This document shows positions 14,661-52,126 of a stretch of 52,270 bases of DNA, one piece after another. A model generated the notes under the pieces. The model was given only the letters and a program-made list of their open reading frames with translations. It did not search any database and was not told the origin of the DNA. How positions within the stretch are numbered: position 1 is the first letter of the stretch; each line of letters starts with the position of its first letter. Both the position numbers and the translations under genes were made by a program. The stretch is from Thermovorax subterraneus (GTDB lineage Bacteria; Bacillota; Thermosediminibacteria; Thermosediminibacterales; Thermosediminibacteraceae), in the NCBI GenBank assembly GCA_021608145.1, contig JAKIHM010000017.1, positions 1 through 52,270 of the forward strand. Reading direction: 5' to 3'.

Positions 14661-14664
14661 AATA

Positions 14665-15366
14665 AAAGATGATGCCTCGGTAAGGCCGGCCACCGCAATT
14701 TCTACCACATTCTCGTTTATAATAAGCTTCACAGCTTATTTTATAGGCGCAATGACCAGACTCTTTTTCGACTCCATACCTTTAGAAGGCGGGCGGCCCA
14801 ATCCTGACATCATGGTGCCGAAAATAATTGAATCGGCGATGCCAGAAGCAGTTGCCGCCGTAATCCTAGCACTTGTAGTCTCTGCTTCCATGTCCACCTT
14901 ATCTTCTTTGGTCCTGATATCGAGCTCGGCGATCAGCGTGGACCTTACAGAAGGGCTTGGAATTAAACTCGGCGGCAAGGCGAAAATGGCGCTCATGAGG
15001 CTTTTCTGCCTGATTTTCATTATCCTGTCCCTGATAATCGCCATACTAAAGCCATCCATCATCATTACGCTGATGGCCATATCCTGGGGCACTGTGGCCG
15101 GAACATTTTTAGCACCCTATCTTTTTGGCCTGTTTTATAAGCAAACCACAAAATCAGGCGCATGGGCTGGTTCCATAACGGGCCTTGCTATATCTATAGT
15201 TCTCTCGATAATTTATAGATTTGATTCATCAAAAATCCCTATGTTCGGAAGCCTTGCCATGATAATCCCGCTTTTAGTAGTACCGTTTGTATCTAAATTG
15301 ACTTCGAAAGAACGAACACAGCAAGAAATTTTTAAAAATGCTCCTTCATCGCAAATAAATTATTGA
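14665..15366 (+). pseudogene. C-terminal half of SSS-family sodium/solute symporter
   Basis: About 233 residues forming several membrane segments, including the family block AAVILALVVSASMSTLSSLVLISSSAISVDL. An SSS protein is normally 450-550 residues; the N-terminal half is absent and codons begin exactly at the end of the tnpB element, without start or ribosome-binding site. No N-terminal half lies on the other side of the element, so the insertion came with a deletion or rearrangement. The substrate cannot be inferred. Confidence 0.82.
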
Positions 15367-21066: not shown

Positions 21067-21095
21067 TTAAAAGCCTCCTTGTGGCATCAAATAAG

Positions 21096-35272: not shown

Positions 35273-36406
35273 TTATCCCACAAGTTTTTCCACTGGAACG
35301 TAATCTTCGTCATAGCCAAAATATTTCGGCCCGAAAGTTTTAATTCCCATTTCAGTCCTCATCTTCTCATCCGCAGGCACCACAACTATGGTCCCCCGGT
35401 AACCGTATTTCACGATATCTGTCCTTATAGGCTCTCCGGTTTCCGAATCGAGGATGAGTATCAAATCCGGCGGCAGGCATACAGTCTTTCCGCTTATTTC
35501 GAGCCTCAGCCATTCGTTTTGAAAATCCACGAAAGCCTTTTCACCCTTGTAGTCATCAAGCCCTTCTAAGGTTAACCTCCCCATGGAAAAGCCCTTTGTC
35601 TTTTCCGCACCGAATTCCCTCGAAATATCCACTATCTTCCCCTTGAAGACCTTGTATCCCCCTACTATTTTGGTTATCTCCTCTATTGGATCCTCATGAA
35701 GTTTTCTGCACCTGAAGACAGCCTTGCCCAGTTCCCAGCTTTTAGAAATGGAATTGAAAATGGCTGCTTCTTTGAGCTGCTTACCTGTCATTGGATACCC
35801 CGCAATCCAGGATATCCCTCCGTATGCCATAGCGGCATTCCTTATGATCCTCTCCGCCATTATGGCGCTCGTAGTGTCAGCTACCGTTACAGCCCCTTTC
35901 TCATTCGCCGCCGCTGTCGGGGATGGCATGATGCCGTGGGTGTAGAAGGAAGTCATCTGGAGCTCCGGAAACGCTCTGCCCATGCCGTCGGCATCCACAA
36001 CAGGTATTCCAACTGCACCTGCCACCGCCATCGGGACAGGAGTATTCACTCCACCGGCTTCTGGAGGTATAATTGCCTGGACTTCCTTTCCCAGGTACCT
36101 CTTCAAACTCTCCAGGCACCACATGACCTCCATGCCGTTTGGCGGTTTTTCCGTGAGAACGACGGGTGCGCCGAGGCACCCGGCGATTACCGCCAGTGCA
36201 TCATCGGGAAAGTCCCTTGGGTCTATCAAAACTATATCCTTTCCCTCTTTCAGCACATTTAAAGCCCAAAGAAACCCAATTTCGGGGTCTCCCCCACCGC
36301 CCGTCGCGAGGATGGAAGCACCAAGGGTTATCTCTTTTAGGTCCTCCTCGCCAATAACCTTGTAATTTTCTATCCCCCAGCTCTTTAAAATATCGTATAC
36401 TCCCAT
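35273..36406 (-). CDS. DUF917 (S-methyl-thiohydantoin desulfurase family), copy 1
   Basis: 377 residues. The family shows LGASILATGGGGDPEIG, an acidic DPRDFPDD, PPEAGGVNTPVPMAVA and PVVDADGMGRAFPELQM. The Pfam name refers to desulfuration of a thiohydantoin, as in the ergothioneine degradation route; the enzymology of most members is unknown. It is strikingly similar to the copy at 37745-38926 (same length, same motifs throughout), so the operon holds two specialised paralogues. Last gene of the island; ATG with AAGGTAGGTG. Confidence 0.88.
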   Translation of the reverse strand: MGVYDILKSWGIENYKVIGEEDLKEITLGASILATGGGGDPEIGFLWALNVLKEGKDIVLIDPRDFPDDALAVIAGCLGAPVVLTEKPPNGMEVMWCLESLKRYLGKEVQAIIPPEAGGVNTPVPMAVAGAVGIPVVDADGMGRAFPELQMTSFYTHGIMPSPTAAANEKGAVTVADTTSAIMAERIIRNAAMAYGGISWIAGYPMTGKQLKEAAIFNSISKSWELGKAVFRCRKLHEDPIEEITKIVGGYKVFKGKIVDISREFGAEKTKGFSMGRLTLEGLDDYKGEKAFVDFQNEWLRLEISGKTVCLPPDLILILDSETGEPIRTDIVKYGYRGTIVVVPADEKMRTEMGIKTFGPKYFGYDEDYVPVEKLVG

Positions 36407-36414
36407 AAAATCAC

Positions 36415-37503
36415 CTACCTTACTAACTCTCGGGGCGCATTCGTAAGGACTTCGCAGCCGCCTTCCGTAACCAGAACCATATCTTCCACCCGGGCCGCCC
36501 CGATGCCCTCCACATATACGCCGGGTTCTACGGTAATCACCATCCCCGGCTGCAAAACGGTCTTCCTTCCCGCATCAATTATCGGCATTTCGTGAATGCT
36601 AAGCCCCAGGCCGTGACCTGTAAGGTGTGGGAAGTATTTGCCATATCCTTTTTCGGCAATGTAATCCCTTGCCGCCTTGTCCACATCCTCAGCCAAAACT
36701 CCTGGCCTTACGGTTTTTATGGCCCGTTTTTGCGCCTCGTACGCCACTTCGAAAAGGTTTTTTTGCTCGTCGGAAATTCCTCCGAGAGAAAACGTCCTCG
36801 TTATATCCGAGCAATAGCCAGCGAATATGCACCCCATGTCAAAAAGAGCAAGCTCTCCCCTTTTCAGCTCTTTTGCCGAGGAAAACCTCTGGGGAAGCCA
36901 CGCGTTTTCTCCCGACATAACGAAGGGTTCGAAGGAAAGCCCTTCCGCCCCTTCCCTCATCATCACATCCTGGGCAATTGCGGATATCTCGTACTCCTTT
37001 ATCCCTTCCTTTACGCTTTCCATAGCCTTTATCATGGCCTTTTCCGCTATCTTCGCCGCTGCTTTTATTAGCTCTATTTCTTCCTCATCCTTTATCATTC
37101 TCATGTTTAAAAGGTCATTTTCTATGTTCAAAAGCTCCGCCTTTGCAACTTCCTTTATCAGATTCTCCCGTTCAACGGTCACCGACGAAAACTCCACTCC
37201 TATTGTCTTTACGTCCCTGCCGGACAGCAATTCTTTTAAAGGCGCAAGGTAGTTCGGATCATCTTCAGGGAATTTCCTTATATCCTTTATAAAACAGGTT
37301 TTCTTTACCCTATTGTAGTCGAGGATCGCCGTCAGGAGGACTACGTCGCCTTTTTTCGAGACAAAAAGGATAGAAAAGGATGCGGCATTGAATCGCACTC
37401 CTGTAAAGTACCTGACATTGGCCCTATCTCCCAAAATAGCCGCATCCAGATTTTTTTCATTTAAAAGTTCAACCAATCTTTCTAATCTCTTTGCAAAATT
37501 CAT
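36415..37503 (-). CDS. M24 family metallohydrolase (Xaa-Pro peptidase/creatinase type)
   Basis: 362 residues. N-terminal creatinase domain (1-130) and pita-bread catalytic domain with all five metal ligands: D in LFDMGC, D in SDITRTF, H in LTGHGLGLSIHE, E in VEPGVY and E in ARVEDM. Length fits prolidase-type PepQ. In this operon, between a winged-helix-like gene and a DUF917 gene, a role on a carbamoyl or amidino product (as creatinase acts on creatine) is as likely as peptide cleavage; this is inference. ATG directly abuts the 83-residue gene. Confidence 0.87.
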   Translation of the reverse strand: MNFAKRLERLVELLNEKNLDAAILGDRANVRYFTGVRFNAASFSILFVSKKGDVVLLTAILDYNRVKKTCFIKDIRKFPEDDPNYLAPLKELLSGRDVKTIGVEFSSVTVERENLIKEVAKAELLNIENDLLNMRMIKDEEEIELIKAAAKIAEKAMIKAMESVKEGIKEYEISAIAQDVMMREGAEGLSFEPFVMSGENAWLPQRFSSAKELKRGELALFDMGCIFAGYCSDITRTFSLGGISDEQKNLFEVAYEAQKRAIKTVRPGVLAEDVDKAARDYIAEKGYGKYFPHLTGHGLGLSIHEMPIIDAGRKTVLQPGMVITVEPGVYVEGIGAARVEDMVLVTEGGCEVLTNAPRELVR

Positions 37504-37755
37504 TTAAATCCCCTCTAGTTCGCTTTCTTTTTCTGGATTTACCATGTATATCTTTTTCGGAACCCTCGATTCCAAGCTAGAATCCGTAGGCCCGGTTAGT
37601 TCTATCAATATCATATCCTGCGAAAGCTTCTCCAGTGCTTCCTCCAACCCCGGCAAATCTCCCAGCGCTTCGATTATTGCTTTCTTCTCGCTGTAGGGGT
37701 TTTCCTTTAAGAATTTTATCACAGCCTTTTCCGTATCGGTAAAATTACACGCCAT
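37504..37755 (-). CDS. Small winged-helix-like protein in hydantoin operon
   Basis: 83 residues; not recognised as a named family. FTDTEKAVIKFLKENPYSEKKAIIEALGDLPGLEEALEKLSQDMIL reads as helix-turn-helix, followed by a strand pair (ILIELTGP, KKIYMVNP), a winged-helix pattern. It overlaps the upstream DUF917 stop by 11 bases and abuts the M24 ATG, so it is made with them. It could be a local regulator or a partner subunit of the DUF917 enzymes. AAGGAGGTG precedes the ATG. Confidence 0.6.
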   Translation of the reverse strand: MACNFTDTEKAVIKFLKENPYSEKKAIIEALGDLPGLEEALEKLSQDMILIELTGPTDSSLESRVPKKIYMVNPEKESELEGI

Positions 37756-38926
37756 CTTGCCACACCTCCTTGTTCAGTTCTTCCACCGGCACGTAATCGA
37801 TGTCGTATCCGAAATACCTCGGTCCGAAGAGCTCGATGCCTTTTGGTGTCCTCATCCTCTCATGAGCCGGAATCAATATTATCGAACCCCTGTATCCGTA
37901 CTTCATTATATCCGTGCGGATAGGCTCTCCCGTTTCGGAATCCACAATGGCGATCAAATCCGGCGGAAGACACCTTATCCTGCCATCGATCCTCAACACT
38001 AGCCACTCGTTTTGAAAGTCGATTTCTGCCACGCTTCCCTTGTAGTCGTCAAGGCCTTCCATCTTGATCCTGCCAAGGCTGAACCCTTTAGTCGCCTCAC
38101 CGCCGAATTCCCTCGAAATGTCCACTATCTTCCCCTTGAAGACCCTAACGCCCGTCACGTTTCGGGTGGCCTTTAAGCTTTTCAACATCTCCTCTACCGG
38201 ATCAAGGTGTTTTTCCCTCGCCCTGTATACGGCTTTGCCCAGCTCCCATGCTATACTCTGGGAATTCAATATAGAAGCTTCCTTCACCTGCTTGCCTGTC
38301 ATCGGGTAAGTTGCAATCCAGGAAATTCCGCCATAGGCCATGGCAACCCGGCGTGCGATATTTTCCGCCATCTTGTTGTCGTCGCCGGTGTCGATTACCG
38401 TGACGTTGCCGCGGTCATCGCAGGAAACTGTAGGGGATGCATTTACACCGCAGGTCACCCAAGAGGTCATCTGAAGTTCCGGAAAAGCCCGGTTCATCCC
38501 GTCCACGTCTATTACCGGCACTTCGAATTCTCCCGCCGCAGCGTACGCCACGGTGGAATTTACACCGCCGCACTCTATGGGAATGGTCGCCTGTAACTTT
38601 TTGCCCCAGTACTGCTCCAGCTTTCTTATGGCGTTGTTGAGCACATCGGCTGATGGCGGTTTTTCGGTGAGCACCACCGGCGCTCCGAGACAGGCAGGGC
38701 TCGCCACCAGGATATCGTCGGGTATATCCATAGGATCTACCATAACTATGGTTTTACCTTCATCTAATACCTTATACGCCCAGAGCAGTCCTATCTCCGG
38801 ATCACCGCCACCACCCGTGGCCAGGATGGAGGCCCCCAGCGTTATCTCCTTTATAGCTTGTTTGTCTATTACTTTGTAGTTTTTCACGCCCCATTTTTCC
38901 AGTGTCTCGAAGACCCTGCTAGACAT
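37745..38926 (-). CDS. DUF917 (S-methyl-thiohydantoin desulfurase family), copy 2
   Basis: 393 residues with the same motif order as copy 1 (LGASILATGGGGDPEIG, DPMDIPDD, PIECGGVNSTVAYAAA, PVIDVDGMNRAFPELQM, FSLGRIKMEGLDDYKG). Differences lie in the active-region loops: PPEAGG in copy 1 is PIECGG here, adding a cysteine. ATG 38926 is chosen (AAGGGGGC seven bases upstream) over the ATG two codons before. Directly follows the short HyuA gene; this HyuA-DUF917 pairing is frequent in bacteria. Confidence 0.88.
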   Translation of the reverse strand: MSSRVFETLEKWGVKNYKVIDKQAIKEITLGASILATGGGGDPEIGLLWAYKVLDEGKTIVMVDPMDIPDDILVASPACLGAPVVLTEKPPSADVLNNAIRKLEQYWGKKLQATIPIECGGVNSTVAYAAAGEFEVPVIDVDGMNRAFPELQMTSWVTCGVNASPTVSCDDRGNVTVIDTGDDNKMAENIARRVAMAYGGISWIATYPMTGKQVKEASILNSQSIAWELGKAVYRAREKHLDPVEEMLKSLKATRNVTGVRVFKGKIVDISREFGGEATKGFSLGRIKMEGLDDYKGSVAEIDFQNEWLVLRIDGRIRCLPPDLIAIVDSETGEPIRTDIMKYGYRGSIILIPAHERMRTPKGIELFGPRYFGYDIDYVPVEELNKEVWQDGV

Positions 38927-38939
38927 TTTCATGCCCCCT

Positions 38940-40535
38940 TTACTCGAAAATTTTTCCTTTGACCCTTACGCGTATCTTTTCGCGTTTGCCCGGCATGTAA
39001 GCGAAGGGGATCTCTTCGATATCGAGTATTTCTACGGTGCTGCGAATGGCTCCCGCCTTTTCAGCTTCATCCTTCGCTTTTTCAACAACCTTGCTTATAG
39101 CTTCGTCCCTGTCTTCGATTTCAAGGTCTGCCACGCCTTCCGCATAGGCTCCTATTTCGGCAATAGTCGTACCTATAGCGCCGCACACTTCAAAGTGGGG
39201 CGGCAATATTACCTCGGATACTCCCTCCAGATTCTCCTTCGGCACAACCGTAGCGCCACCGCCGACGAATATGGCCTTCACATTTCCCGCCACCGTCTTC
39301 ATCTGGTCTATGGCAACTTCTAACCGATTCTTTATTATGTTGTAAGCAGCCTCCACTAGACCTTTGTCCAAAGCTTTAACCTTATCTATGCACGGTGCGA
39401 AATCCGTCTCGAAAATGTCTAGCTTCCTATCCAATATCCCCTTTGCCACGGCGATATCATGGGTGGTGATCATGGGACCGCCGAAGGATTTGCCGAGCCT
39501 AACCAGGTTGTAACCTACGCTTTCTGGGCCATAGCCTATAACTTCATTGCCCTTAGTCTTTACTATCGTTCCGCCGCCTAAAGCTATGGACATTAGGTCC
39601 GGGCACCTTATATTCGTCTTCACCCCACCTATCGTCACAGTTATGGAAGATTCCCTCGGGAACCCGTTTACTATAAATGCCACATCGGTGGAAGTTCCGC
39701 CTATATCCACCACCACGCCGCTATCTATGCCCGAAAGGTAAACCGCACCCCTTACGCTGGCCGCTGGTCCCGAAGCTACCGTAAAGATGGGGTAGTTAAC
39801 GGCGTAATCCGCCGACATTACGGTGCCGTCGTTCTGAACTATGAAAAGCGGTGCATCTATGCCGCGCTCCTTCACGGCTTTTTTCAGGGCATCCACAGCC
39901 TTCCTCATGACGGTAATAACCGAGGCGTTCAGAATCGTGGAATTTTCCCTTTCTAAAAGGGATATGGAAGCGATGTGGTTCGAAAGGGTTATAGGTATAT
40001 CCCCTAATTCCTCCCGGATTATTTCAGCAGCCCTTTCCTCCTGATCGGGGATCATCGGCGAAAAGACTCCGGTAATAGCAATAGAATCCACTTTGCCGCC
40101 AATCTTGCCGCAGGCCTGCCTTATAGCCTCTTCGTCCAGTGGAACGATGTCCCTGCCATCGTATTCCTTACCGCCGCGCACTATAAAGATATTGTCCGTC
40201 CCACCGATAGCCTCTTTCAAATCTTCGGGCCAACCGGTAAGCGGAGGAATTGCGGTGGTGGCAGGTGCGCCGAGTCTAAAAATTCCTACTTTGTTCAGGT
40301 TTCTCCTCTCTATTATCGCGTTGGTGGTATGGGTGGTTCCAAGCGACACCAGGGCGATTTCCGATACATCGGCTTTTTTAGTCTTCAAAAGAGCATCAAG
40401 GGCATTTATAATGCCTGTCGTAACGTCCTCAGTGGTAAGGGCTTTTGCCTTTGCCAAAACTTCCTTACCCCTCAGCATAACGCCATCGGTAAAAGTGCCT
40501 CCGACATCGAATCCTATTCTCACATCTTTTGCCAT
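38940..40535 (-). CDS. Hydantoinase/oxoprolinase subunit A, short form
   Basis: 531 residues. ATP-dependent amidohydrolase of the HyuA/ASKHA family: phosphate loop GFDVGGTFTDG near the start, TTHTTNAI, VVDIGGTSTDVAF and GGGATVVPKENL. About 150 residues shorter than the HyuA at 43186, lacking its C-terminal domain, and without its own HyuB next door; it probably acts with the adjoining DUF917 protein. ATG 40535 has AGGAGGAAGG; it follows the racemase by 11 bases. Confidence 0.88.
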   Translation of the reverse strand: MAKDVRIGFDVGGTFTDGVMLRGKEVLAKAKALTTEDVTTGIINALDALLKTKKADVSEIALVSLGTTHTTNAIIERRNLNKVGIFRLGAPATTAIPPLTGWPEDLKEAIGGTDNIFIVRGGKEYDGRDIVPLDEEAIRQACGKIGGKVDSIAITGVFSPMIPDQEERAAEIIREELGDIPITLSNHIASISLLERENSTILNASVITVMRKAVDALKKAVKERGIDAPLFIVQNDGTVMSADYAVNYPIFTVASGPAASVRGAVYLSGIDSGVVVDIGGTSTDVAFIVNGFPRESSITVTIGGVKTNIRCPDLMSIALGGGTIVKTKGNEVIGYGPESVGYNLVRLGKSFGGPMITTHDIAVAKGILDRKLDIFETDFAPCIDKVKALDKGLVEAAYNIIKNRLEVAIDQMKTVAGNVKAIFVGGGATVVPKENLEGVSEVILPPHFEVCGAIGTTIAEIGAYAEGVADLEIEDRDEAISKVVEKAKDEAEKAGAIRSTVEILDIEEIPFAYMPGKREKIRVRVKGKIFE

Positions 40536-40546
40536 AATCCTTCCTC

Positions 40547-41320
40547 CTACCTTTCCCATAATCCTTTAATATTGTATTGTTCTTCCAATCCCCATTCCTT
40601 TATTTCAAAAAGCGGTGGAATCTCAAAGCCGAATCTCTTGCTGTGGCCCCAGCCGAACCTTTCCTTTAGTTCTACAAGAAATTCTGCGTATTTAAAGGGA
40701 GCCACTATTGCATCTATCACCGGAACCTTCACATACTCTTGAAGCTCTTTGTAAAACCCAAATTGAATAGTGCAGCCAAGGATGATAGCCTCTGCCCCAT
40801 CTTTTTCCACCGCTTCCTTGGCGGCATTTTTGAGCCTTTCCACCGTTACCTTTTCATCAGCGTGAAAATCGTAAACCCCGAGGCCGAGGGATTTGAAAGA
40901 TGCAAGTTTTTCCTTTAAGCCGTTTAGAATCACGTTGTCCATCATTTGAGGTATCCACTTTTCCCTGCCTACTATAATGGAAAACTTGTGCCCTAACGTT
41001 GCGGCTATGTGCATGCATGCTTCCGCAGGAGCGGTAACCACCATCTTTTCGGTTATCTCCCTCGCGTCATGTAGTCCTGGATCGTAAAAGCACCCTATTA
41101 TTGCCGCATCATATCCTTCGTTTTCTGCTTTCTTAATGAGATGGAGCGTATCCGGGATCACTAATGCTTCGTAGTACCTGTACTCCAGGTGCTTTGGGCC
41201 TCTTTGCAGCGACACCACTTTTACTTCGGTGTCGGGTCTTTTTATCTCGTTCAGCATTTCCTCTATGGGCTTGTCGAAAACATCGGTGCCCACAGGGTTT
41301 ATCCACAAAATTTTGGGCAT
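40547..41320 (-). CDS. Asp/Glu-hydantoin racemase family protein
   Basis: 257 residues. The paired catalytic cysteines are visible: IIGCFYDPG (first half) and ILGCTIQFG (second half), with NPVGTD at the start. Family members racemise hydantoins, aspartate or glutamate or act as maleate/arylmalonate enzymes; the operon favours a 5-substituted hydantoin. The C-terminus is about 25 residues longer than usual (HSKRFGFEIPPLFEIKEWGLEEQY). ATG 41320 with AAAGGAGTG; the longer frame upstream lacks family sequence. Confidence 0.85.
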   Translation of the reverse strand: MPKILWINPVGTDVFDKPIEEMLNEIKRPDTEVKVVSLQRGPKHLEYRYYEALVIPDTLHLIKKAENEGYDAAIIGCFYDPGLHDAREITEKMVVTAPAEACMHIAATLGHKFSIIVGREKWIPQMMDNVILNGLKEKLASFKSLGLGVYDFHADEKVTVERLKNAAKEAVEKDGAEAIILGCTIQFGFYKELQEYVKVPVIDAIVAPFKYAEFLVELKERFGWGHSKRFGFEIPPLFEIKEWGLEEQYNIKGLWER

Positions 41321-41354
41321 AGCGTCACTCCTTTCTCTTTTTCGCTTTAAAGTG

Positions 41355-41383
41355 AAAATACAAAAAAGTTGAGCTTTATTCAA
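41355..41383 (-). promoter_or_regulatory. Internal promoter before the racemase
   Basis: Minus strand TTGAAT (41383-41378), 17-base spacer, TATTTT (41360-41355), then TTTCACTTTAAAGCGAAA, a near-palindrome. It would restart transcription below the terminator at 41398-41441. Confidence 0.5.
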
Positions 41384-41397
41384 TGTTTTGTAGGGAC

Positions 41398-41441
41398 AAA
41401 AAAATGGGCTTCCTTTAGCCTGAAAAGACAAACCGGAAGCC
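41398..41441 (-). terminator. Internal terminator after hyuB
   Basis: GGCTTCC/GGAAGCC stem, 21-base loop, then C, A and seven T residues on the minus strand, eight bases past the hyuB stop. It splits the island into an upstream (permease-hyuA-hyuB) and a downstream part. Confidence 0.7.
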
Positions 41442-41448
41442 TATTTGC

Positions 41449-43182
41449 TCAGCTCTTACTTTGCCTCAATTTTTGTGTTTTCTCCATATTCACAAATAGC
41501 GTGCCTTCCTTTTCTTCTATGACGACGCCGTATACCTTTAAGGCCTTTTCCAACGTTATGTATTCGTTTTTCACATCTTCGAGAACCATCATTGGATCTC
41601 TATCTAGAGGATTTCCGTAACCGCCTCCTCCCCCGGATATAAACCTCACCAAATCGTTTTTCTTGAGCGGGAAGTTAGAGAATGTGGCCCTCTCTATTAT
41701 ATTGCCGTTGCTGAATACCTGAACCTTGTTGTTAGAACCCGGGCTTCCGCCGTTTACCCCCCACGGCAGATACCTGTATCTGCTGGCAATCGTGGTTAGC
41801 TCCGCATTAGAATTCAAAATCCTGTAATCCCTGATTAACCCAAATCCTCCCCTATATTTTCCATCCCCGCTTGCCAAATTAAAACTATATTGTTCCACCA
41901 ATATCGGGTAGCGGGTTTCCGCAACTTCCACCGGCATGTTGTAAGTCTCCCCGTCATCGATCGCCACAAGTCCGCTTTCTCCATCCTTGTTTATCCCCGC
42001 TCCCCATCCGCCGGCCTGAGGTTCGCACAGCACGAAGGGCTCTTTCGTCCTATCGTCTATTCCTCCGACAATAGTGCCTATTATGCTCAGGAAATGGCCT
42101 GCCGTTATTCTATCCGGCGCATGGGGTGCCAGTGCTTTTGCCACAAGATCCGTAAGATGCGAAAAAGCCTCCCAGTTACAGGATACCGGTGCCGGCCTTA
42201 CTGCCGAAAAGACTGTTCCGTCGGGAACTATGACCTTCAGAGGTTTGTAAAACCCTTCGTTTGCTTCGGCATGTGGACAGACAATCGCCCTGTACACGAC
42301 TCTTGCGGCGGAATATGCCCCATACTTCGTGCAGTTTATCGGAGCGGGTACCTGGCTGCCCGAACCAGTCAAATCTATTATAAAACTGTCGTCGGTTATC
42401 GTAACTTTCGCCTTTACATATACGTCTTCTATCCCGTTTGATTCCGTATCAATGTACCCGTCAGCTTCAAAGGTGCCATGGGGGAGCTTTTTCAGCTCCT
42501 GTTTTGCAAGTTTTTCACCGTTTTCCATCATCAGCCGGATGCTCTCCAAAACTGCATCCTTGCCGTACCTTTCTACCAGCTCCAAAACTCTTCTCTCAGC
42601 AACTCTCAATGATGCAGTCTGAGCATAAAGGTCTCCCAGAGTCATTTCCGGAGTCCTGACATTCGCCTCAATCATATCCCTTATAGCTTCATTCAATTTC
42701 CCTTCTTCATACACTTTTATGATAGGAAATTGCAGGCCTTCCTGATATATTTCCGTTGAATTGGTGGACCAGCTCCCCAAAGATTTTCCCCCTATTTCAT
42801 TCCAATGGCCCTTGTTTGCCGCAAAAGCTATTATTTCCCCCTTGTAGAAAATGGGCATTACAGCGGATACATCGCAAAGATGGGTACCGCTCCCGTTGTA
42901 GGGATCATTAGTAAGTATAATATCGCCGGGTTTCAAGCCGTCGTATCCGAACTTTTCAATGACTGACTTTACGGAATAGGTGATCGTTCCGAGAAAGCCG
43001 GTCACACCGTTTGCCTGAGCGATTAGGTCTCCATTTGCATCCGTAAGTCCCGCCGCATAGTCTAACACTTCGTAAATGATGGGGCTCTGACTCGTCCTGC
43101 CCCAGCTGATGAACATCTCTTCTGCAGCAGCTATGAGTCCATCCCCTATATTTTCCAAAGTGAATCTATCGACCTTGCCCAT
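41449..43182 (-). CDS. hyuB: Hydantoinase/oxoprolinase subunit B
   Basis: 577 residues of the HyuB family: ADRFTLE-like opening VDRFTLENIGDGLIAAAEEMF, metal-region NDPYNGSGTHLCDV, GHWNEIGG, and the C-terminal FSNFPLKKNDLVRFISGGGGGYGNPLDRDP. Together with HyuA it hydrolyses hydantoin-type rings with ATP. It follows HyuA by three bases, so the two form one complex. ATG with AGGGGG. Confidence 0.92.
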   Translation of the reverse strand: MGKVDRFTLENIGDGLIAAAEEMFISWGRTSQSPIIYEVLDYAAGLTDANGDLIAQANGVTGFLGTITYSVKSVIEKFGYDGLKPGDIILTNDPYNGSGTHLCDVSAVMPIFYKGEIIAFAANKGHWNEIGGKSLGSWSTNSTEIYQEGLQFPIIKVYEEGKLNEAIRDMIEANVRTPEMTLGDLYAQTASLRVAERRVLELVERYGKDAVLESIRLMMENGEKLAKQELKKLPHGTFEADGYIDTESNGIEDVYVKAKVTITDDSFIIDLTGSGSQVPAPINCTKYGAYSAARVVYRAIVCPHAEANEGFYKPLKVIVPDGTVFSAVRPAPVSCNWEAFSHLTDLVAKALAPHAPDRITAGHFLSIIGTIVGGIDDRTKEPFVLCEPQAGGWGAGINKDGESGLVAIDDGETYNMPVEVAETRYPILVEQYSFNLASGDGKYRGGFGLIRDYRILNSNAELTTIASRYRYLPWGVNGGSPGSNNKVQVFSNGNIIERATFSNFPLKKNDLVRFISGGGGGYGNPLDRDPMMVLEDVKNEYITLEKALKVYGVVIEEKEGTLFVNMEKTQKLRQSKS

Positions 43183-43185
43183 TTC

Positions 43186-45237
43186 CTATACCCCCTCTAT
43201 AACAAGGTTGCCGTAGTCGTCCACAAATAACCTCTGCTCCGGGTAAAGGACCGTTACGGTGGTCTCTTCCTCTATGATAGCCGGACCTTCTATTTTGCTG
43301 CCAGCCCCCAACCTTTCCCTCACATATACGGCAACCTCTATCTTTCCGTATTCGTCGTAGTCCACCACTTTCTTGCACCTCAATGCATCTTCCGGCCTTC
43401 CCTTTACTTCGTAGGGCTTAATTTCAGCCTTTTTTACTCTTCCGAATGCGGTGACGTGAAAGTTTACAAATTCAATTGGCGCGTTCGGCAGCCTGAACGC
43501 GTAGTACTGCTCGTGGAGGTTTTCGAAATTCTCCCTTATTATCTCTAGATCCTTGCTACCAGAAATGAACGGCACCACCGGAGTTCTCACAGTATGCTCC
43601 TGCCCTACATATCTTATATCCGCCGATTTTACGATGTATACATCCTCTTCTTTTACGCCGTGTGTCGTGTAGAGTTCATAAGCTTTATTTACCATATCAG
43701 TGTATATTTCGTTCATCAAACCGATATTATCTTCATTTGCCCTGATGATCTTCGTCTGGATGAAGTCCTGCCTTAGATCCGTCATCAACATTCCCCAGGC
43801 AGAAAACACCGCCGGATACCTAGGTATCACTATCTTTTTTACTTTAAGCTCCTTGCCTAAAGCGGGACCGTGAATCGCACCGTTGCCGCCAATAGCCACC
43901 ATAACGAACTCTCTTGGATCATAACCCCTTCTGACAGACACCAGCTTTAATGCGTTCATCATGTTGTTGTTTGCAATCCTTATGATCCCCCTAGCAGCTT
44001 CTTCCACTGATATTTTGTAATAATCGGCGATCTTCTTCACCGCTTCATAGGATTTCCTTATATCTATCCTGAATTTTCCTCCAAGAAATCTCTCGGGATC
44101 TATTCTTCCCGCTATCATGTTTGCATCGGTCAGGGTAGGTTCCATATTGCCCTTGCCGTAGCAAGCCGGCCCCGGATCAGCTCCCGCACTCTGCGGGCCA
44201 ACTTTAAGGTTCCCCACAGAATCGATCCAGGCAATACTTCCTCCGCCTGCTCCTATTTCGATAATGTCAACTATCGGCGCCTTTATAGGATAGCCGGGGT
44301 AAATCGGAGTTTGTTCCAACCTGTAATCGGTGGTAATTCTAACTTCATTGTTGTATATTAGCGATGTCTTTGCAGTTGTTCCACCGATGTCAAAAGTGAT
44401 TATGTTTTTTTCTCCGATTATCTTACCAAGTTCGTTTGCACCTATAACTCCGCCTACAGGCCCAGATTCTATAATATTTATGGGATTTACCTTTACCATC
44501 TCAAATGTCGCAGAACCGCCATTAGACTGCATCGCGTATGGTTCAATCTTTAATCCCTTTTTCTTCATTCTCTCCTTCAAACTATCTAAATATTTGGAAG
44601 TTACCGGTTTCACATAGGCATTGAATACGGTGGTATTGGTTCTTTCGTATTCCCTCCACTCTTTTGTCACTTCAGAAGAAATGCTAATTTCAACTCCGGG
44701 AAGTTCCTCTTCCAAAATCTCCTTTATCTTCTCCTCATGTGAAGAATTTGCATAAGAGTGCAAAAGACATACTGCTATAGCTTCGATGCCTTCCTTCCTG
44801 CATTTTTCCGCGATCTTTTTTACATCATCTTCATTCAAGGGCACTAGAACATTCCCATCTTTGTCAATTCTTTCTGTTACCTCAAATCTATACATCCTAG
44901 GCACGAAAGGTTTCGGTTTGGTGTAATAGTAGTTGTAAAGGTCAGTCCGGTTTGCCCTCCCGATTTCTAACACATCTCTAAATCCCTTCGTCGTAATTAG
45001 AGCAGTTTTTGCACCTTTCCTTTCCGTTAAGGCATTTATCACTATAGTGCTCCCGTGCACTATGTAGCTTGCTTTTTCTAACGGGATACCGCCTTTCTCA
45101 ATTGCCTCCATTACTCCATCGGCAAAATTCTTCGGCGTACTAGAGGCCTTCGTTACGGTAATCCCCCCTGTCTCCTCATCCATCGCCACATAATCGGTAA
45201 AAGTGCCACCGATATCAATAGCTATCCTGTAGCCCAA
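43186..45237 (-). CDS. hyuA: Hydantoinase/oxoprolinase subunit A, full length
   Basis: 683 residues. N-terminal hydantoinase A domain (AIDIGGTFTDYVAMD) and central ATPase domain (ITFDIGGTTAKTSL, IEIGAGGGSIAW, GPACYG), with the C-terminal domain (about 510-683) that the short paralogue lacks. It couples ATP hydrolysis to ring opening, with HyuB next door. TTG start with AAGGGGG; only two bases from the permease stop. N-methylhydantoinase, 5-oxoprolinase and acetophenone carboxylase are relatives; the ring itself cannot be deduced. Confidence 0.92.
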   Translation of the reverse strand: MGYRIAIDIGGTFTDYVAMDEETGGITVTKASSTPKNFADGVMEAIEKGGIPLEKASYIVHGSTIVINALTERKGAKTALITTKGFRDVLEIGRANRTDLYNYYYTKPKPFVPRMYRFEVTERIDKDGNVLVPLNEDDVKKIAEKCRKEGIEAIAVCLLHSYANSSHEEKIKEILEEELPGVEISISSEVTKEWREYERTNTTVFNAYVKPVTSKYLDSLKERMKKKGLKIEPYAMQSNGGSATFEMVKVNPINIIESGPVGGVIGANELGKIIGEKNIITFDIGGTTAKTSLIYNNEVRITTDYRLEQTPIYPGYPIKAPIVDIIEIGAGGGSIAWIDSVGNLKVGPQSAGADPGPACYGKGNMEPTLTDANMIAGRIDPERFLGGKFRIDIRKSYEAVKKIADYYKISVEEAARGIIRIANNNMMNALKLVSVRRGYDPREFVMVAIGGNGAIHGPALGKELKVKKIVIPRYPAVFSAWGMLMTDLRQDFIQTKIIRANEDNIGLMNEIYTDMVNKAYELYTTHGVKEEDVYIVKSADIRYVGQEHTVRTPVVPFISGSKDLEIIRENFENLHEQYYAFRLPNAPIEFVNFHVTAFGRVKKAEIKPYEVKGRPEDALRCKKVVDYDEYGKIEVAVYVRERLGAGSKIEGPAIIEEETTVTVLYPEQRLFVDDYGNLVIEGV

Positions 45238-45239
45238 TC

Positions 45240-46580
45240 TTAAAACCCCCTTATCTCTTCCATTTTTCCTTTACTTCTCCATCTTAAAGGTGTAAATTGA
45301 TCCGGCATTATACGCGCTTTGATGTACATCAAAACATAGTATAAAATCCCGCTTACCAAATAGCTTTGCACCGCGGGTATACCCCACGGCCTGACATACT
45401 GAGTATAATAGCCTATAGCTATTCCAGCTATCATCGCAATAGTAGCAACCCAATTCCATCCCTTTTTGTCTTCCCAATTTTTGTTGTGAATTAAAATAAA
45501 ATCAGTTACCATTATAGAGCCGATTGCCGGATAAGAAAGGGCAGTAAGATACAGAAAATCCTGAAATTTATTCAGTATTCCCATTAGAGCTACCACCAAT
45601 GCTACGGCTGTCCCAATTGCAGTCAAGTATTTCCTATGCTTGTTTGTCTTCATATTCAGCATGTTGCAGAGTGCAAGACCCATAGAATAATCGTTGACCA
45701 ATTGAGAGGTCCACTGAGCCAACCACAGGATCAAGAAACCCCACCAGCCAAACCCAAGTTGCTGCATCAATGCCACTATGTCATAAGTTCCCTTGCCAAC
45801 GCCCATAACTGCACCCATAATGAACAACATAAACCCAACTACTATAACTCCGGCAGGCACTAAAAAAGCATCTCTTGTCCTAGCCTTGCAAAATCGCGAA
45901 TAATCTGCAAAAATCACAAACTGCGCCACGTTTGCCCCAACAAGAGCACTAACCGCCTGAGTGAAAAGCATATTCTGAGGAGGATCATACGCTAAGATAC
46001 CTGCCAAACCTGTCCCTTTCATTGAAAGATAAAAGCCGGAAATAACAAGTAGCATACCTGCAGGAACTGCAAGATAGTCAGTCCAGGCCATAGAGCTGTA
46101 ACCGATTATTGGTGGAATAGCAAAAATGATTCCCGCAATTGTCGTGATGATAGCCCACATCGTAAAATTACTAGTATAATCAATCCCAAACATTGCACAC
46201 AAGGCATTACCGGTTACTGCTGTCTGAAGTGCCCACCAGCCGCCTGTCATTATTAAAACAGCAAGGGAAATAATTATCCGAGCTTGAACATCTCCAAAAG
46301 CTGACCTTGCAATAACAGAAGAAGATCTACCTGTCATTGCGCCAAGGTAACAGTTTAGACCATCCCCCAGCCAGGTTATGATGACTAGCCCTAATATTAC
46401 AGCCAAAACAAATTCTTTAAGGCTAAAATTCGCTATAAGTCCACTTCCAATCATCATTACAGGTATGCAAAACTCGCACCCCGCATAAACAACAGCTGGC
46501 GAAATCCAGCTCACCCTTTTTTCAGGTGGAATCGACTCAAGCCCCGCTTCTTCATTAAAAAGATTCTGTTCATCTGACAT
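45240..46580 (-). CDS. NCS1 family permease (cytosine/allantoin/hydantoin type), copy 1
   Basis: 446 residues with about 12 membrane segments. The family features are the IPPEKRVSWISPAVVYAGCEFCIPVMMIGSGLIA opening, SFGDVQARIIISLAVLIMTGGWWALQTAVTGNA and the FADYSRFCKARTRDAFLVPAG loop. NCS1 members import hydantoins (Mhp1), cytosine and allantoin, so this one likely feeds the hyuAB system, from which it is separated by two bases. ATG 46580 with AGGAGG. Promoter at 46618-46646. Confidence 0.88.
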   Translation of the reverse strand: MSDEQNLFNEEAGLESIPPEKRVSWISPAVVYAGCEFCIPVMMIGSGLIANFSLKEFVLAVILGLVIITWLGDGLNCYLGAMTGRSSSVIARSAFGDVQARIIISLAVLIMTGGWWALQTAVTGNALCAMFGIDYTSNFTMWAIITTIAGIIFAIPPIIGYSSMAWTDYLAVPAGMLLVISGFYLSMKGTGLAGILAYDPPQNMLFTQAVSALVGANVAQFVIFADYSRFCKARTRDAFLVPAGVIVVGFMLFIMGAVMGVGKGTYDIVALMQQLGFGWWGFLILWLAQWTSQLVNDYSMGLALCNMLNMKTNKHRKYLTAIGTAVALVVALMGILNKFQDFLYLTALSYPAIGSIMVTDFILIHNKNWEDKKGWNWVATIAMIAGIAIGYYTQYVRPWGIPAVQSYLVSGILYYVLMYIKARIMPDQFTPLRWRSKGKMEEIRGF

Positions 46581-46617
46581 AATTTTGCCTCCTATTTCGA
46601 TAAATTTTTTGTTTAGG

Positions 46618-46646
46618 AATATATAAGAGAGTCGAATAAAATTCAA
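46618..46646 (-). promoter_or_regulatory. Promoter of permease-hyuA-hyuB
   Basis: Minus strand TTGAAT (46646-46641), 17-base spacer, TATATT (46623-46618). It starts just below the pucR terminator, 38 bases before the ATG. Confidence 0.6.
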
Positions 46647-46706: not shown

Positions 46707-48395
46707 TTATGGAAGCATTTTCATGACTTTGAGCAATAGGTGATAATAAAGCCTCATCTGGGGGTCTTCTAATACGTTTTCTCCCATTATCTCCTTAATT
46801 TTCTTTAGCCGGTACTTTACCGTATTCGGATGAGCAAATAGTCTTTTTGCTGTCTCTTTTACACTGCAATTGCTATCTAAAAAAGCCTCTAACGTGGAAA
46901 TTAAGCTTGCATTTTTGCTTTCATCATAATCATAAAGTTTTTGTAAACATTTGTCTTTCAACACATCCTCTTTCCTTTCGGGAATCGAAATAAATTTGTA
47001 AATCCCAAGGTCATCGTAGTAGTGAATCTTTCCTTCCCCGAAGAGCTTTGCCCCTAAATCTTTTGCAAAAAGCGCTTCCATATATGCCCTTTTCAGCTCG
47101 GTCAAATTTTCCATGTGGGAGCTTATCCCTATCGTGAGCGAGATGGCCGGATATTTAGAAGAAAAACCTTCGATTATTCTTCGGAAAAAATCGCCGAGTT
47201 CTCTCTTATGCCTCTCCGTCAAATATTCTCTCTGGGTGAAACCCACAACCAAGACGCAGGCATCGCTTTGTTGCACGAAAAGGACTATCTTATTTTTTAT
47301 TTTTGAATTTCTGTAAGCTTCCTGGACTGCCTTTTTCAAGTCCATTTTCACCTTTTGGATGTGCTCTTCGCCTTTTTCATAGTTCTCACGGTAATATCTT
47401 TCGAAATCGTCTATATCGACTATAATTACAAAATTTTTGTCGAACAGGTTCAAACCTAAGGTTTTTGCCCTCTTATTCATCAGCTCTCCCGAAGTGTATC
47501 TTCCATTTATTATGTCATCGAAAAAATCGGACTTCAATCTCTGCTCGGTCTCCAAAATTGCCTTATTTTTCAATATGTCCATTTTTAAGGCCGTAACCGT
47601 ACCCGGCAGAGCGACTTCAAAAAGCTTTCTCTCGTATTCGTTCAATTTTCCCCTCTTTAATATCAAAAGATAGTGGTTTTCTCCTCCGGACTCCACAGGA
47701 ACCACCACCACATCATGATCTTCGTCGAATGAAGCAACCTTGAATTTTAAATTCCCGCTTTCCGGCACATTTTCGACAAAATTTCTCGCCCAATCCAATA
47801 TTTTATCAATTCTCTTTTCTACCGAGCTTTTATCGCCGTTTCGAAAAACCGCTTCAATGAGGCCGAAATTTTCGTCCAGAAAAAATACGGTTTTATTGGT
47901 TATGGACGAGAGCTTTTCTATTATCTCGCAAGCCCCTCCGTTGCTGAGCAGGATGTTGTTCATAGTGTCGTTGATTTCCTGAGCTTTTCTGAGCTCCTGC
48001 TCTTTTTTGCTGAGCAACAGTTCGTACACTTTTTTTATAATTATCGAATAAGGAACTTTTCTGTCTATTAAGAACAACGGAAAACCTATTTCATCTGCAT
48101 ACCTCATCAAATGGTCTATATTAATGGGAATTTTTCCGCTCCCTGGATGAATCATTATGCACGAAGCCCCACCTCTGTCCAATCCCTCTAAAAGCTTGAG
48201 CCTTTCCCCATCAGTCCTGCAAGAGTACAGCGTAGTAAGTATCATTTCTCCGCCGCAAAGCCACTCGTAGCAGTCCGGTATTTCAAGGACGCTTACCGAC
48301 TTTACCAGCCTGCTTTCCCCCTTTTTCCCTGCCATCCAATATATACCCTCATCCTTTAGCACATCATAAGCTTCCTTTACCGTTACACCCTCCAT
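46707..48395 (-). CDS. PucR-family transcriptional regulator
   Basis: 562 residues. N-terminal PucR ligand domain (MEGVTVKEAYDVLKDEG, LEIPDCYEWLCGGEMILTTLY; 1-125), a middle GGDEF-related CdaR-like region and a C-terminal PucR helix-turn-helix (SVKETAKRLFAHPNTVKYRLKKIKEIMG). The family controls purine or hydantoin/ureide use in response to metabolites. It sits between the hyu island and a divergent second NCS1 permease and is the likely regulator of both. ATG with AGGGTAGGG. Confidence 0.9.
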   Translation of the reverse strand: MEGVTVKEAYDVLKDEGIYWMAGKKGESRLVKSVSVLEIPDCYEWLCGGEMILTTLYSCRTDGERLKLLEGLDRGGASCIMIHPGSGKIPINIDHLMRYADEIGFPLFLIDRKVPYSIIIKKVYELLLSKKEQELRKAQEINDTMNNILLSNGGACEIIEKLSSITNKTVFFLDENFGLIEAVFRNGDKSSVEKRIDKILDWARNFVENVPESGNLKFKVASFDEDHDVVVVPVESGGENHYLLILKRGKLNEYERKLFEVALPGTVTALKMDILKNKAILETEQRLKSDFFDDIINGRYTSGELMNKRAKTLGLNLFDKNFVIIVDIDDFERYYRENYEKGEEHIQKVKMDLKKAVQEAYRNSKIKNKIVLFVQQSDACVLVVGFTQREYLTERHKRELGDFFRRIIEGFSSKYPAISLTIGISSHMENLTELKRAYMEALFAKDLGAKLFGEGKIHYYDDLGIYKFISIPERKEDVLKDKCLQKLYDYDESKNASLISTLEAFLDSNCSVKETAKRLFAHPNTVKYRLKKIKEIMGENVLEDPQMRLYYHLLLKVMKMLP

Positions 48396-48643: not shown

Positions 48644-49945
48644 GTGGAAAAACAAAAATCCCAGGTCAACATTGAAGAAGAATACACTCAAAAACCCATA
48701 CCCGAATCAATCAGAAAACACTGGTTCTACGCTGGTAGCGTATACATCGGAATGTGCGCCGTTTTAGCGTGCAGCATGGCGGGCGGCGGACTGATTTACG
48801 GGCTCAACCTTTCACAAGCCATCTGGGCGATGCTGCTCGGACTTCTCGCTCTGCTGCTTTTCTTCTACATCCCCCTCGGCAAAATAGGTGCAGAGCAAGG
48901 TCTCAATACTTACCTCATAGGTGAGTGCGCCTTTGGCAAAAGGGGGAGCGATATCGCGACTTCCTTCATAGTGACCGCAATTCCATCCATTGCTTGGTAC
49001 GGAATAGAAGTGGAAATAGCAACTCAGGCCCTCGCCGCGGTAATTCCAATGAGCAAGGCAGCTTTCAACATCCTTACTGTGATATTCGGCATCGTCTTTG
49101 CTATCCCGGCAATGTACGGGATTCTTTCCATGGCATGGCTCAACTGGATTAGCCTTCCAATCATGATTTACATCATCGTGTTTGGCGTTGGAAAGGCCAT
49201 CCTTCAATCCGGAATAAGCGGCCTTTTTGCCTATAGTCCTGCGCAAAACATGGGACTGTTTTGGGGCATCAATATGCAAATAGGAATGATAGCCGTTGGC
49301 TGCTCCTTCGTCGCCGACTACACCAGGTGGATAAAAAACAGGTGGAGCGATGTGGCTTATTCTGGAATAACCGGCCTTTTCCCGGCGACGACGATCCTCA
49401 CCACTGCCGGGATGATAATGGCCCTTTCCGCCACACGCCTGGGGGTAAAAGAGCCATGGAACATCGTAGAGGTTATGATAAAACTCGGAATGCCCGCAAT
49501 GGCTCTAGTTCTAGTCTTTCTGCTTCAATGGACGACCTGCATTACCGCCGCGTACAGCTCGGGACTCGCACTAAATAAAGTTTTCGGAAAAAGCAGGTTT
49601 TTCCTTACTCTAATCTCTGCTATATTAGGCACTGTCTTTGCTGTGTCGGGCATAGTGAGCTATTTCTTGAATTTCGTGTCCATCCTCGCTTCATGGGTGG
49701 CTCCCATAAGCAGCGTAATCATAACCGAATACTTCTTGGTCTCCAAGAGAAACTTTGTGCGCAAGGAAGGAATCTACTGGCCCGGTGTAATTTCCGCCCT
49801 GATAGGAGGACTTATAGCGTGGAAGAGCAAATTCTTCGTGCCGGCTATAAACGGAATGATCGTAAGCGGCATCATTTACTACGGCTATCACAGGATTTTA
49901 GGCCTTACCGCCGCTAAAGAAAAAAATCTCACAATAGAAACTTAA
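48644..49945 (+). CDS. NCS1 family permease, CodB-like, copy 2
   Basis: 433 residues, about 12 membrane segments. Purine/cytosine-permease type: SIRKHWFYAGSVYIGMCAVLACSMAGGGLIYGL, IPSIAWYGIEVEIATQAL, CSFVADYTRWIKNRWSD. It is more like cytosine permease CodB than copy 1 is. Divergent from pucR and hence probably co-regulated; substrate perhaps a purine, pyrimidine or hydantoin. GTG start with AAGGAGGG eight bases upstream. A terminator follows. Confidence 0.88.
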   Translation: MEKQKSQVNIEEEYTQKPIPESIRKHWFYAGSVYIGMCAVLACSMAGGGLIYGLNLSQAIWAMLLGLLALLLFFYIPLGKIGAEQGLNTYLIGECAFGKRGSDIATSFIVTAIPSIAWYGIEVEIATQALAAVIPMSKAAFNILTVIFGIVFAIPAMYGILSMAWLNWISLPIMIYIIVFGVGKAILQSGISGLFAYSPAQNMGLFWGINMQIGMIAVGCSFVADYTRWIKNRWSDVAYSGITGLFPATTILTTAGMIMALSATRLGVKEPWNIVEVMIKLGMPAMALVLVFLLQWTTCITAAYSSGLALNKVFGKSRFFLTLISAILGTVFAVSGIVSYFLNFVSILASWVAPISSVIITEYFLVSKRNFVRKEGIYWPGVISALIGGLIAWKSKFFVPAINGMIVSGIIYYGYHRILGLTAAKEKNLTIET

Positions 49946-50988: not shown

Positions 50989-51942
50989 TTACACTGTCCG
51001 GGCGGGTTCTCCGTGCACAGTCGCCCTGCAGTGGATTCTCTCCTCAATCAGCCTTTCGATCTTTTCCGAAAGCTCATGGGCTTCATAAAAGTTAAGCGTG
51101 CTGTCCATTACTACGTGAAGGGAAATTTCCTTGTATGCCCCGTAATCATGGATGAACACCTTGTGCACATCTATTACTCCTGGAAATGAAAGAGCAGCCT
51201 CTTTGACCTTCTTTACCAACTCTTCTTCCCCTATCTCTCCGATTAGTTTAGAACAAGAATCAAAAGCCATAGTGCCTCCCGTATATACAATCAGTGCCGA
51301 AACCAAAAAGCCAAATACTGCATCTACCCTGTAGTACCCGTATTTTGAAAAAATTATTGCCACCGCTACTAATAAAGAAGCTATGGCATCGGTCCTGTGG
51401 TGCCATGCATCTGCAATCAAAGCCCCTGCCGATATCTTATTACCTAATTCTATGGAAAACCTGCTCATCCATTCCTTTATAACTGCTGAGGCCAGCATAA
51501 AAATTGCAACCAAGATGTTTCCTGTAACTTTTTCATTGGTCAAGAATCTTTCGTAAGACGATTTGCCGAACTCAAAACCCACAAAAATCAGCATTACTGC
51601 TATGAGAAGCGATGCCAAAAACTCAACCCTGCCATGCCCATAGGGATGTTTTTCATCCGGCGGCGCAGCGGAAAATTTAAAACCCAAAAGCACCACTGCA
51701 GAAGTAAACACGTCAGACGCAGTATGGACGGCGTCAGCAATTAGAGAAATGCTGTTCATAATAAAACCTAAAATAAGCTTTATCGCCGCAAGGACAACAT
51801 TGCCTATTATACTGACCCAGCTTTCCAAATAGGCTATTTTCTTCCTTTCTTCAGGGTCAAATATTTTCTCACCAGAAGAGTTTATCTTTAATATCTTTAA
51901 TATCAAATAATCTGTTGTTTTTTTGATAAAATTGCAGGCCAA
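50989..51942 (-). CDS. Cation diffusion facilitator family transporter
   Basis: 317 residues, six membrane segments. Metal sites of the family are visible: LIADAVHTASD (TM2, H-x3-D) and LIADAWHHRTD (TM5, H-x3-D), with the C-terminal cytoplasmic domain (about 225-317). It exports divalent metals such as Zn, Fe or Mn in exchange for protons. TTG 51942 with GGAGG nine bases upstream. It lies beyond a promoter and terminator/antiterminator-like leader (52005-52126), so expression is likely sensed at the RNA level. Confidence 0.9.
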   Translation of the reverse strand: MACNFIKKTTDYLILKILKINSSGEKIFDPEERKKIAYLESWVSIIGNVVLAAIKLILGFIMNSISLIADAVHTASDVFTSAVVLLGFKFSAAPPDEKHPYGHGRVEFLASLLIAVMLIFVGFEFGKSSYERFLTNEKVTGNILVAIFMLASAVIKEWMSRFSIELGNKISAGALIADAWHHRTDAIASLLVAVAIIFSKYGYYRVDAVFGFLVSALIVYTGGTMAFDSCSKLIGEIGEEELVKKVKEAALSFPGVIDVHKVFIHDYGAYKEISLHVVMDSTLNFYEAHELSEKIERLIEERIHCRATVHGEPARTV

Positions 51943-52004: not shown

Positions 52005-52092
52005 TAAAAAAGACTTGCGGGAGTGAGTCCCGCAAGTCTTTTAGACTTGCTGCGCCGATAAAGGCGCCCGGCTTTTCGCCTGATCTCGTTGA
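52005..52092 (-). ncRNA. Candidate riboswitch or attenuator in CDF leader
   Basis: RNA order on the minus strand: GGC-gaaaa-GCC hairpin (52080-52070), GCGCC-loop-GGCGC hairpin (52067-52052), GCAAGTCT-AAA-AGACTTGC hairpin (52050-52032), then terminator AAGACTTGCGGGA / TCCCGCAAGTCTT (52040-52010) with T tract. The third hairpin and the terminator share bases 52032-52040 and exclude each other. No known riboswitch family was recognised. The rest of 51943-52270 has no gene. Confidence 0.55.
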
Positions 52093-52096
52093 AGTT

Positions 52097-52126
52097 ATTT
52101 TAACATGGGACAAAAAGATATGTCAA
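52097..52126 (-). promoter_or_regulatory. Promoter of the CDF leader
   Basis: Minus strand TTGACA (52126-52121) and TAAAAT (52102-52097), 18-base spacer. It places the start near 52090, just before the leader hairpins. Confidence 0.65.

Follow-up and report, generated by a model that had tools for sequence, protein, structure and literature searches.

The window analysed here is the whole stretch of 52,270 nt from Thermovorax subterraneus (contig JAKIHM010000017.1, genome of 2.45 Mb), and the subject of this work is a gene island within it where members of the HyuA, HyuB and DUF917 families stand together with a permease, an isomerase, a small winged-helix (wHTH) protein and an M24 metallohydrolase. 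All genes of the island are long open frames on the minus strand, with family matches far over the cut-off. A previous sequence-only reading of this DNA had described the order permease-hyuA-hyuB-racemase-short hyuA-DUF917-winged helix-M24-DUF917, which was borne out by the open reading frames (ORFs) and the family matches, as were its two HyuA and two DUF917 proteins; its count of eight enzymes was wrong, the correct one being seven enzymes plus the permease and the small winged-helix protein. The island is composed of two units, an accessory NCS1-HyuA-HyuB module and a core racemase-short HyuA-DUF917-wHTH-M24-DUF917 cassette, the latter containing both DUF917 copies of the genome. The features are, in the direction of transcription of the island:

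48644-49945, plus strand: second NCS1 permease, divergent from the PucR gene and conserved beside the cassette in other loci
46707-48395, minus strand: PucR-type transcriptional regulator, 5′ of the island (Pfam PucR, HTH_30 and GGDEF_2)
46688-46666, minus strand: intrinsic terminator after the PucR gene (10-bp stem and U-run, fold z -3.7)
46577-45240, minus strand: NCS1-family permease, accessory (PF02133, 66 bits)
45237-43186, minus strand: full-length HyuA of 683 aa, accessory (Hydant_A_N, Hydantoinase_A and Hydant_A_C; PF05378, PF01968 and PF19278)
43182-41449, minus strand: HyuB, accessory (PF02538, 554 bits)
about 41441-41407, minus strand: terminator-like hairpin in the gap between the HyuB and racemase genes (7-bp GC-rich stem GGCTTCC...GGAAGCC, long loop and U-run, fold z -2.3)
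41320-40547, minus strand: Asp/Glu/hydantoin racemase-family isomerase, core (PF01177, 120 bits)
40535-38940, minus strand: short HyuA of 531 aa, an ASKHA-type ATPase, core (Hydant_A_N and Hydantoinase_A, ATP motifs present)
38932-37745, minus strand: DUF917/S-Me-THD-like protein a, core (PF06032, 169 bits; PF20906, 220 bits)
37755-37504, minus strand: winged-helix protein of 83 aa, overlapping DUF917a (structure model, no Pfam match)
37503-36415, minus strand: M24 metallohydrolase, prolidase-like, core (PF00557, 242 bits)
36406-35273, minus strand: DUF917/S-Me-THD-like protein b, core (PF06032, 182 bits; PF20906, 212 bits)
35266-35242, minus strand: intrinsic terminator ending the cassette (11-bp stem, fold z -4.4)

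The start of the accessory permease is most likely the ATG at 46577, because an ORF begun at the TTG further upstream (46694) would overlap the PucR terminator. The break between the two units, where both a terminator and a promoter had been suggested, is supported by the hairpin, which is weaker than the two flanking terminators; a promoter scan of the gap gave nothing convincing.

The core cassette is not a chance arrangement, as shown by its recurrent order and by low dN/dS values. About 15 non-redundant loci keep the same order, short HyuA-DUF917a-wHTH-M24-DUF917b with the racemase usually in front, in Tepidanaerobacteraceae, Desulfosporosinus, Bacillus, Cytobacillus, Siminovitchia and an Acetomicrobium genome (Synergistota), and a contig of Candidatus Aerophobetes carries the front part of the cassette and stops within it. 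A scan of named genomes with the short HyuA gave 26 loci, and the close relatives of this genome in that scan are Tepidanaerobacteraceae, including Fervidicola ferrireducens. The racemase gene lies immediately 5′ of the short HyuA in loci L003, L005, L011, L012, L041 and L042. Comparison with congeners gave dN/dS values of 0.00-0.09 for all the cassette genes, and the cassette is under purifying selection. Moreover, the short HyuA of Acetomicrobium is 86% identical to the one in this genome and its PucR only 51%, a contrast which suggests that the cassette has been horizontally transferred. It has been lost in F. ferrireducens, where nothing persists but a piece of the short HyuA (aa 105-256) and remnants of the second NCS1 permease (L024 9774-10456, G003:C16:1407-1877). 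Two variants were also seen: in L008 (1-6115) the order is DUF917-wHTH-racemase-short HyuA-DUF917-M24, so gene order is not absolutely fixed, and in the Bacillus and Cytobacillus loci L013-L017 the cassette is part of a longer run of genes that also includes additional HyuAB pairs, another M24 in which the PHH histidine is kept, a DUF3830 protein, an MFS transporter and M19 dipeptidases.

All of the 20 loci encoding the 83-aa protein in the survey carry the cassette, and it occurs nowhere else there. Its wing motif, ESRVPKKIYxxNPE, is conserved, and a modest model (pLDDT 75) has MarR/PadR regulators as structural matches, which supports the earlier call of a winged helix; a zinc-finger-like small subunit was considered and dropped on the same grounds. 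The PucR gene is kept 5′ of the cassette in L003, L005, L007, L038 and L042, and the second NCS1 permease adjoins it in L003, L004, L005, L007, L009, L010 and L042, this permease being a likelier transporter for the core cassette than the accessory one.

The most regular feature of the cassette is the partner of its short HyuA. Throughout 398 genomes of the phylum, a DUF917 gene was found within 5 kb of all 39 short HyuAs, counted as full-length alignments of at least 41% identity, and of none of the 34 other HyuAs, whose alignments covered just the first 340 or so residues. Among the fetched loci, 55 of 61 short HyuAs have a DUF917 within two genes, and some of the six exceptions are misses of the simple ORF caller, for instance in L035, since adjacent DUF917s do appear in the annotation of that plasmid. 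A single short HyuA of the 61 stands beside HyuB, being in fact a long HyuA that is truncated, in comparison with 18 of 19 long HyuAs; in the window as well, HyuB pairs with the full HyuA. Plasmids of Parageobacillus, Lactiplantibacillus, Enterococcus, Aminobacter, Mesorhizobium and Haloferax carry the short HyuA-DUF917 pair, lacking HyuB and accompanied by NCS1 or ABC transport. The 531-aa protein keeps the Hydant_A_N and Hydantoinase_A domains and the ATP motifs of the ATP-dependent HyuA/HyuB lactamases (5-oxoprolinase, N-methylhydantoinase and CapAB), motifs which nearly all short HyuAs retain, but it differs from them in having no match to the C-terminal Hydant_A_C domain in the Pfam search, no HyuB, and DUF917 as constant partner. 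The short HyuA thus appears to be a separate subfamily partnered by DUF917 and not by HyuB. 5-Oxoprolinase divides its reaction between an A subunit, which phosphorylates, and a B subunit, without which hydrolysis does not take place (PMC6061476), and because of this split the simplest reading would be that DUF917 takes the place of HyuB. In a tree of the family, both cassette copies fall in one clade with a support of 100, neighboured by other DUF917s linked to short HyuAs, which points to a duplication of DUF917a and DUF917b inside the cassette lineage.

The accessory module behaves in a different manner. Its HyuA and HyuB have the complete architecture, with PF05378, PF01968, PF19278 and PF02538 all over the cut-off, yet the pair falls below every NCBIfam cut-off of the lactamase group. 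In the sister genome G001 (L003) the sequence follows the window at 92-94% identity to position 46681 and resumes at 41494, and about 14 last codons of HyuB are kept at the junction as a deletion scar, so the module was cleanly lost there. In G004 (L038) the module is damaged, with a permease lacking aa 1-226 and an internal deletion in HyuA, despite cassette proteins 96-100% identical to those of the window. The full HyuA/HyuB with their own permease may represent an accessory lactamase, also dependent on ATP, that acts on a related ring. The duplication in the island had been taken as a sign of two related substrates or two successive steps; only the DUF917s are duplicates within the cassette lineage, and the two HyuAs, which belong to different subfamilies with different partners, are excluded as such, the full HyuAB being separable and deleted in the sister genome.

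The nearest NCBIfam models of this accessory pair lead to the first alternative for the cassette, in which a simple lactam (5-oxoproline or caprolactam-like) would be opened by the short HyuA-DUF917 pair, with M24 as an unrelated aminopeptidase. The full HyuA and HyuB are closest to the alpha subunit of caprolactamase (NF050156, 559 bits) and to its partner CapB (NF050157, 276 bits), caprolactamase being an ATP-dependent HyuAB-type enzyme (PMC6061476). Both scores lie under the cut-offs of 1000 bits, and no aminotransferase is found beside the cassette in the window. Known lactam routes have, to our knowledge, no role for a PF01177 isomerase or for two DUF917 proteins, and altogether we consider this alternative improbable.

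The DUF917 proteins were previously proposed to desulfurate a (thio)hydantoin. Both belong to the DUF917/S-Me-THD fold by PF06032 and PF20906, and the model of DUF917b (pLDDT 91) matches PDB entry 2o3i with a Z of 38.6; no kinship with HyuB or with another known catalytic fold was found, 2o3i being the only convincing match and neither Foldseek nor VIA giving a second family over background, although one may exist. A thiohydantoin or S-methylthiohydantoin route, where DUF917 desulfurates, HyuA opens the ring and M24 frees an N-carbamoyl or amidino product, draws on these Pfam families, within which NCBIfam names the thiohydantoin desulfurases. The cassette proteins share domains and fold with those desulfurases, but they form a separate clade linked to short HyuAs and score 73-90 bits against models NF058529 and NF058532, roughly a fifth of what these equivalogs require (cut-offs of 440 and 450). 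Moreover, 52 genomes with DUF917 contain 38 urocanase sites, all of them farther than 20 kb from any DUF917 gene, and the Bacillota loci with NCS1 and the DUF917-short HyuA pair show no recurrent sulfur-handling gene, so that the route is very improbable and the desulfurase proposal is not supported. The sole sulfur-linked context seen is a Streptomycetaceae plasmid (Streptomyces; L036 6433-11754) carrying HyuA-DUF917, OsmC, a cysteine-synthase-family protein and another DUF917.

A more serious alternative, albeit an unlikely one, is a cyclic ureide such as hydantoin, N-methylhydantoin or a dihydropyrimidine, which the short HyuA and DUF917 would convert with ATP into an N-carbamoyl amino acid, with the racemase acting on a 5-substituted hydantoin and the carbamoyl group taken off by M24 or by a different amidase. 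NCS1 permeases, a PucR regulator and a member of the hydantoin-racemase family are all present, the nearest PDB relatives of HyuA are N-methylhydantoinase and 5-oxoprolinase, and the minimal plasmid module PucR-NCS1-DUF917-short HyuA suits a small heterocycle. On the other hand, the release of a carbamoyl group advanced by the sequence-only reading finds no M20 N-carbamoyl amino-acid amidohydrolase here, the genome giving no match to TIGR01879; just one of 25 sites over the cut-off of this model lies within 10 kb of a DUF917, which is of a low-scoring type and has no short HyuA. Nitrilase-family proteins are present in the genome, and a carbamoylase of that type may be among them. DUF917 loci recur instead with peptidases, peptide transporters and cyclodipeptide oxidase, as follows.

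A total of 60 DUF917 neighbourhoods were fetched and clustered, and M29-like peptidases were found in 21 of them, against about 0.4 expected from an estimated density of around one M29 per genome; Pfam confirmed 17 of 21 sampled members. Other recurrent neighbours are dipeptide ABC transporters, OPT transporters, AroM and PF01177 racemases, with M19 dipeptidases in Bacillus. The same cast of neighbours has been published for cyclodipeptide oxidases (CDO) lacking a cyclodipeptide synthase (CDPS) (survey in PMC11055893), and for this reason the B subunit of the oxidase (PF19585) was searched for. It occurs at 11 sites in 10 of the 398 genomes, seven of the 11 having a DUF917 at most 10 kb away (binomial ~1e-16), and eight of the 10 genomes carry DUF917, compared with 64 of 398 overall (Fisher p 1e-5). 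A single run in L053 reads M29-M29-SBP5-permease-two ATPases-CDOA-CDOB-DUF917-short HyuA, with both oxidase subunits confirmed by Pfam, and another in L072 reads racemase-CDOA-CDOB-M29-DUF917-DUF917. The cassette has in common with the non-CDPS oxidase clusters (PMC11055893) the PF01177 racemase, DUF917, peptidases and peptide transporters, and one surveyed operon joins the oxidase to DUF917 and the short HyuA; it differs from them in lacking the oxidase, in its NCS1 transport and in the additional M24 and wHTH genes. Since the characterised oxidases act on cyclic dipeptides (PMC11055893), their linkage to DUF917 is the strongest substrate pointer found, and it is directed toward this class of compounds.

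The M24 protein of the cassette is prolidase-like. It has the domains of an Xaa-Pro dipeptidase (M24B), namely Peptidase_M24 and Creatinase_N with DDHEE ligands, its metal ligands D222, D233, H297, E326 and E340 are invariant among cassette members, and its nearest relatives are Xaa-Pro dipeptidases (E 5e-71), PepQ being the best structural relative. With PepQ it shares the five metal ligands, but it scores 274 of 630 bits against that equivalog, and the histidine of the prolidase PHG/PHH motif is replaced by Q or R in cassette M24s. The creatinase-like role in amidino release that had been suggested was ruled out, as creatinase 1chm matches with an E of 4e-28 only and all five peptidase ligands are kept. 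As for the M24-DUF917 pair, whose neighbourhoods had been recommended for a search, it recurs in the cassette but outside it only in a few loci (L045, L047 and L097), and the general peptidase linkage of DUF917 therefore rests on M29 and not on M24.

Altogether, we give about an even chance to a core cassette devoted to the ATP-dependent opening of cyclic dipeptides (2,5-diketopiperazines) by the short HyuA and DUF917, a role for which some HyuAB-like genes have already been proposed (PMC6061476). An NCS1 carrier would import the cyclic dipeptide ring and the PF01177 isomerase would, if needed, epimerise an alpha-carbon. The short HyuA would then transfer a phosphate from ATP to the lactim oxygen of one of the ring amides, and DUF917, in the lactamase role of HyuB, would add water at the activated carbon to yield a linear dipeptide, which the prolidase-like M24 might cleave; the released amino acids would enter the fermentation of proline, hydroxyproline and glycine, for which the genome has genes at other sites, with the wHTH protein probably regulating the unit. 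It is from the comparisons above that we infer the substrate, the division of labour between the short HyuA and DUF917, and each catalytic step. The general picture of the earlier interpretation is supported: the island would serve to break down a small cyclic amide, imported through NCS1, handled by an isomerase and opened at the expense of ATP.

The substrates are possibly cyclic dipeptides containing proline or hydroxyproline, in view of genes found past the cassette in the window, where HypD, a proline racemase/hydroxyproline epimerase and a PrdR-like regulator lie 5-14 kb away:

27494-28507, minus strand: proline racemase/hydroxyproline epimerase family (469 of 556 bits for proline racemase; 387 of 376 for hydroxyproline epimerase)
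21096-23531, minus strand: trans-4-hydroxy-L-proline dehydratase HypD, glycyl-radical (NF043068, 1154 bits, cut-off 1100)

A D-proline reductase operon with a proline racemase is found on contig C3 (L103 5120-11650; PrdA 951 of 700 bits, PrdC 693 of 490), and the genome has the gene content of a Stickland fermenter. In this line, proline racemase genes adjoin the cassette or lie near it in L006, L011 and L017, and Enterococcus raffinosus has two PucR-NCS1-DUF917-HyuA units beside prd genes. A cyclic dipeptide containing proline or hydroxyproline, cut by M24, would fit this context, this being the least certain part of the proposal given the altered M24 motif.

Several observations weigh against cyclic dipeptides as the substrate. 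Cyclodipeptide oxidase is found neither in this genome nor beside any M24 cassette seen, its operon with the short HyuA was met once, and most DUF917s linked to the oxidase have no short HyuA. More is known of NCS1 carriers and PucR regulators in connection with nucleobases, allantoin and hydantoins. In M24, the Q replaces a histidine conserved in prolidases and in aminopeptidase P, so that the protein may not cleave Xaa-Pro bonds, and the HypD and proline racemase genes of the window, 7-14 kb from the cassette, may be unrelated to it. Furthermore, the linkage statistics all come from one GTDB phylum, and the literature searched held no biochemistry for the short HyuA or for this DUF917 clade.

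The families involved are known singly. Neither the obligate pairing of short HyuA with DUF917 nor the M24-wHTH-DUF917 cassette is described in the literature searched, from which most subscription journals were excluded, and within the same scope no paper was found with this gene set, in agreement with the earlier remark that its order was not known to that reader as a described pathway. We hold only tentatively, as a possibility, the joint proposal that the short HyuA and DUF917 make up a new ATP-dependent hydrolase of cyclic amides that has two components, with DUF917 in the place of HyuB, and occurs widely among bacteria and haloarchaea, and that the M24-wHTH-DUF917 duplication cassette has specialised in the anaerobic breakdown of cyclic dipeptides containing proline. 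If true, genes would be assigned to the largely unassigned breakdown of diketopiperazines, many proteins annotated as hydantoinase/oxoprolinase and DUF917 would gain a testable substrate class, and the role of DUF917 would extend past thiohydantoin desulfuration. The presence of the cassette in cultured Siminovitchia thermophila, Cytobacillus oceanisediminis and Desulfosporosinus metallidurans makes direct testing possible.

Some minor features complete the description. The operon in L103 comprises PrdC, PrdA, PrdB and PrdD/E, the PrdB frame being apparently cut by a probable selenocysteine stop, and matches to family PF09338 on contig C40 suggest glycine reductase too. Known RNA elements at gathering score, searched from 26000 to 52270, are absent from the island, and the sole match is a NiCo riboswitch outside it (52023-52097, minus strand), 5′ of a cation-efflux-like gene (50989-51942). 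A radical-SAM activating enzyme adjoins HypD, the pair spanning 20149-23531 on the minus strand, and a Na+/solute symporter-like gene (23885-25336) lies 5′ of HypD. Between this gene and the proline racemase gene, two overlapping ORFs on the plus strand (25689-27216) form a transposase-like frame, probably a decayed insertion element, and a TnpB-like (IS605-type) protein extends over two overlapping frames (13516-14519, plus strand) beside a truncated symporter (14503-15366).

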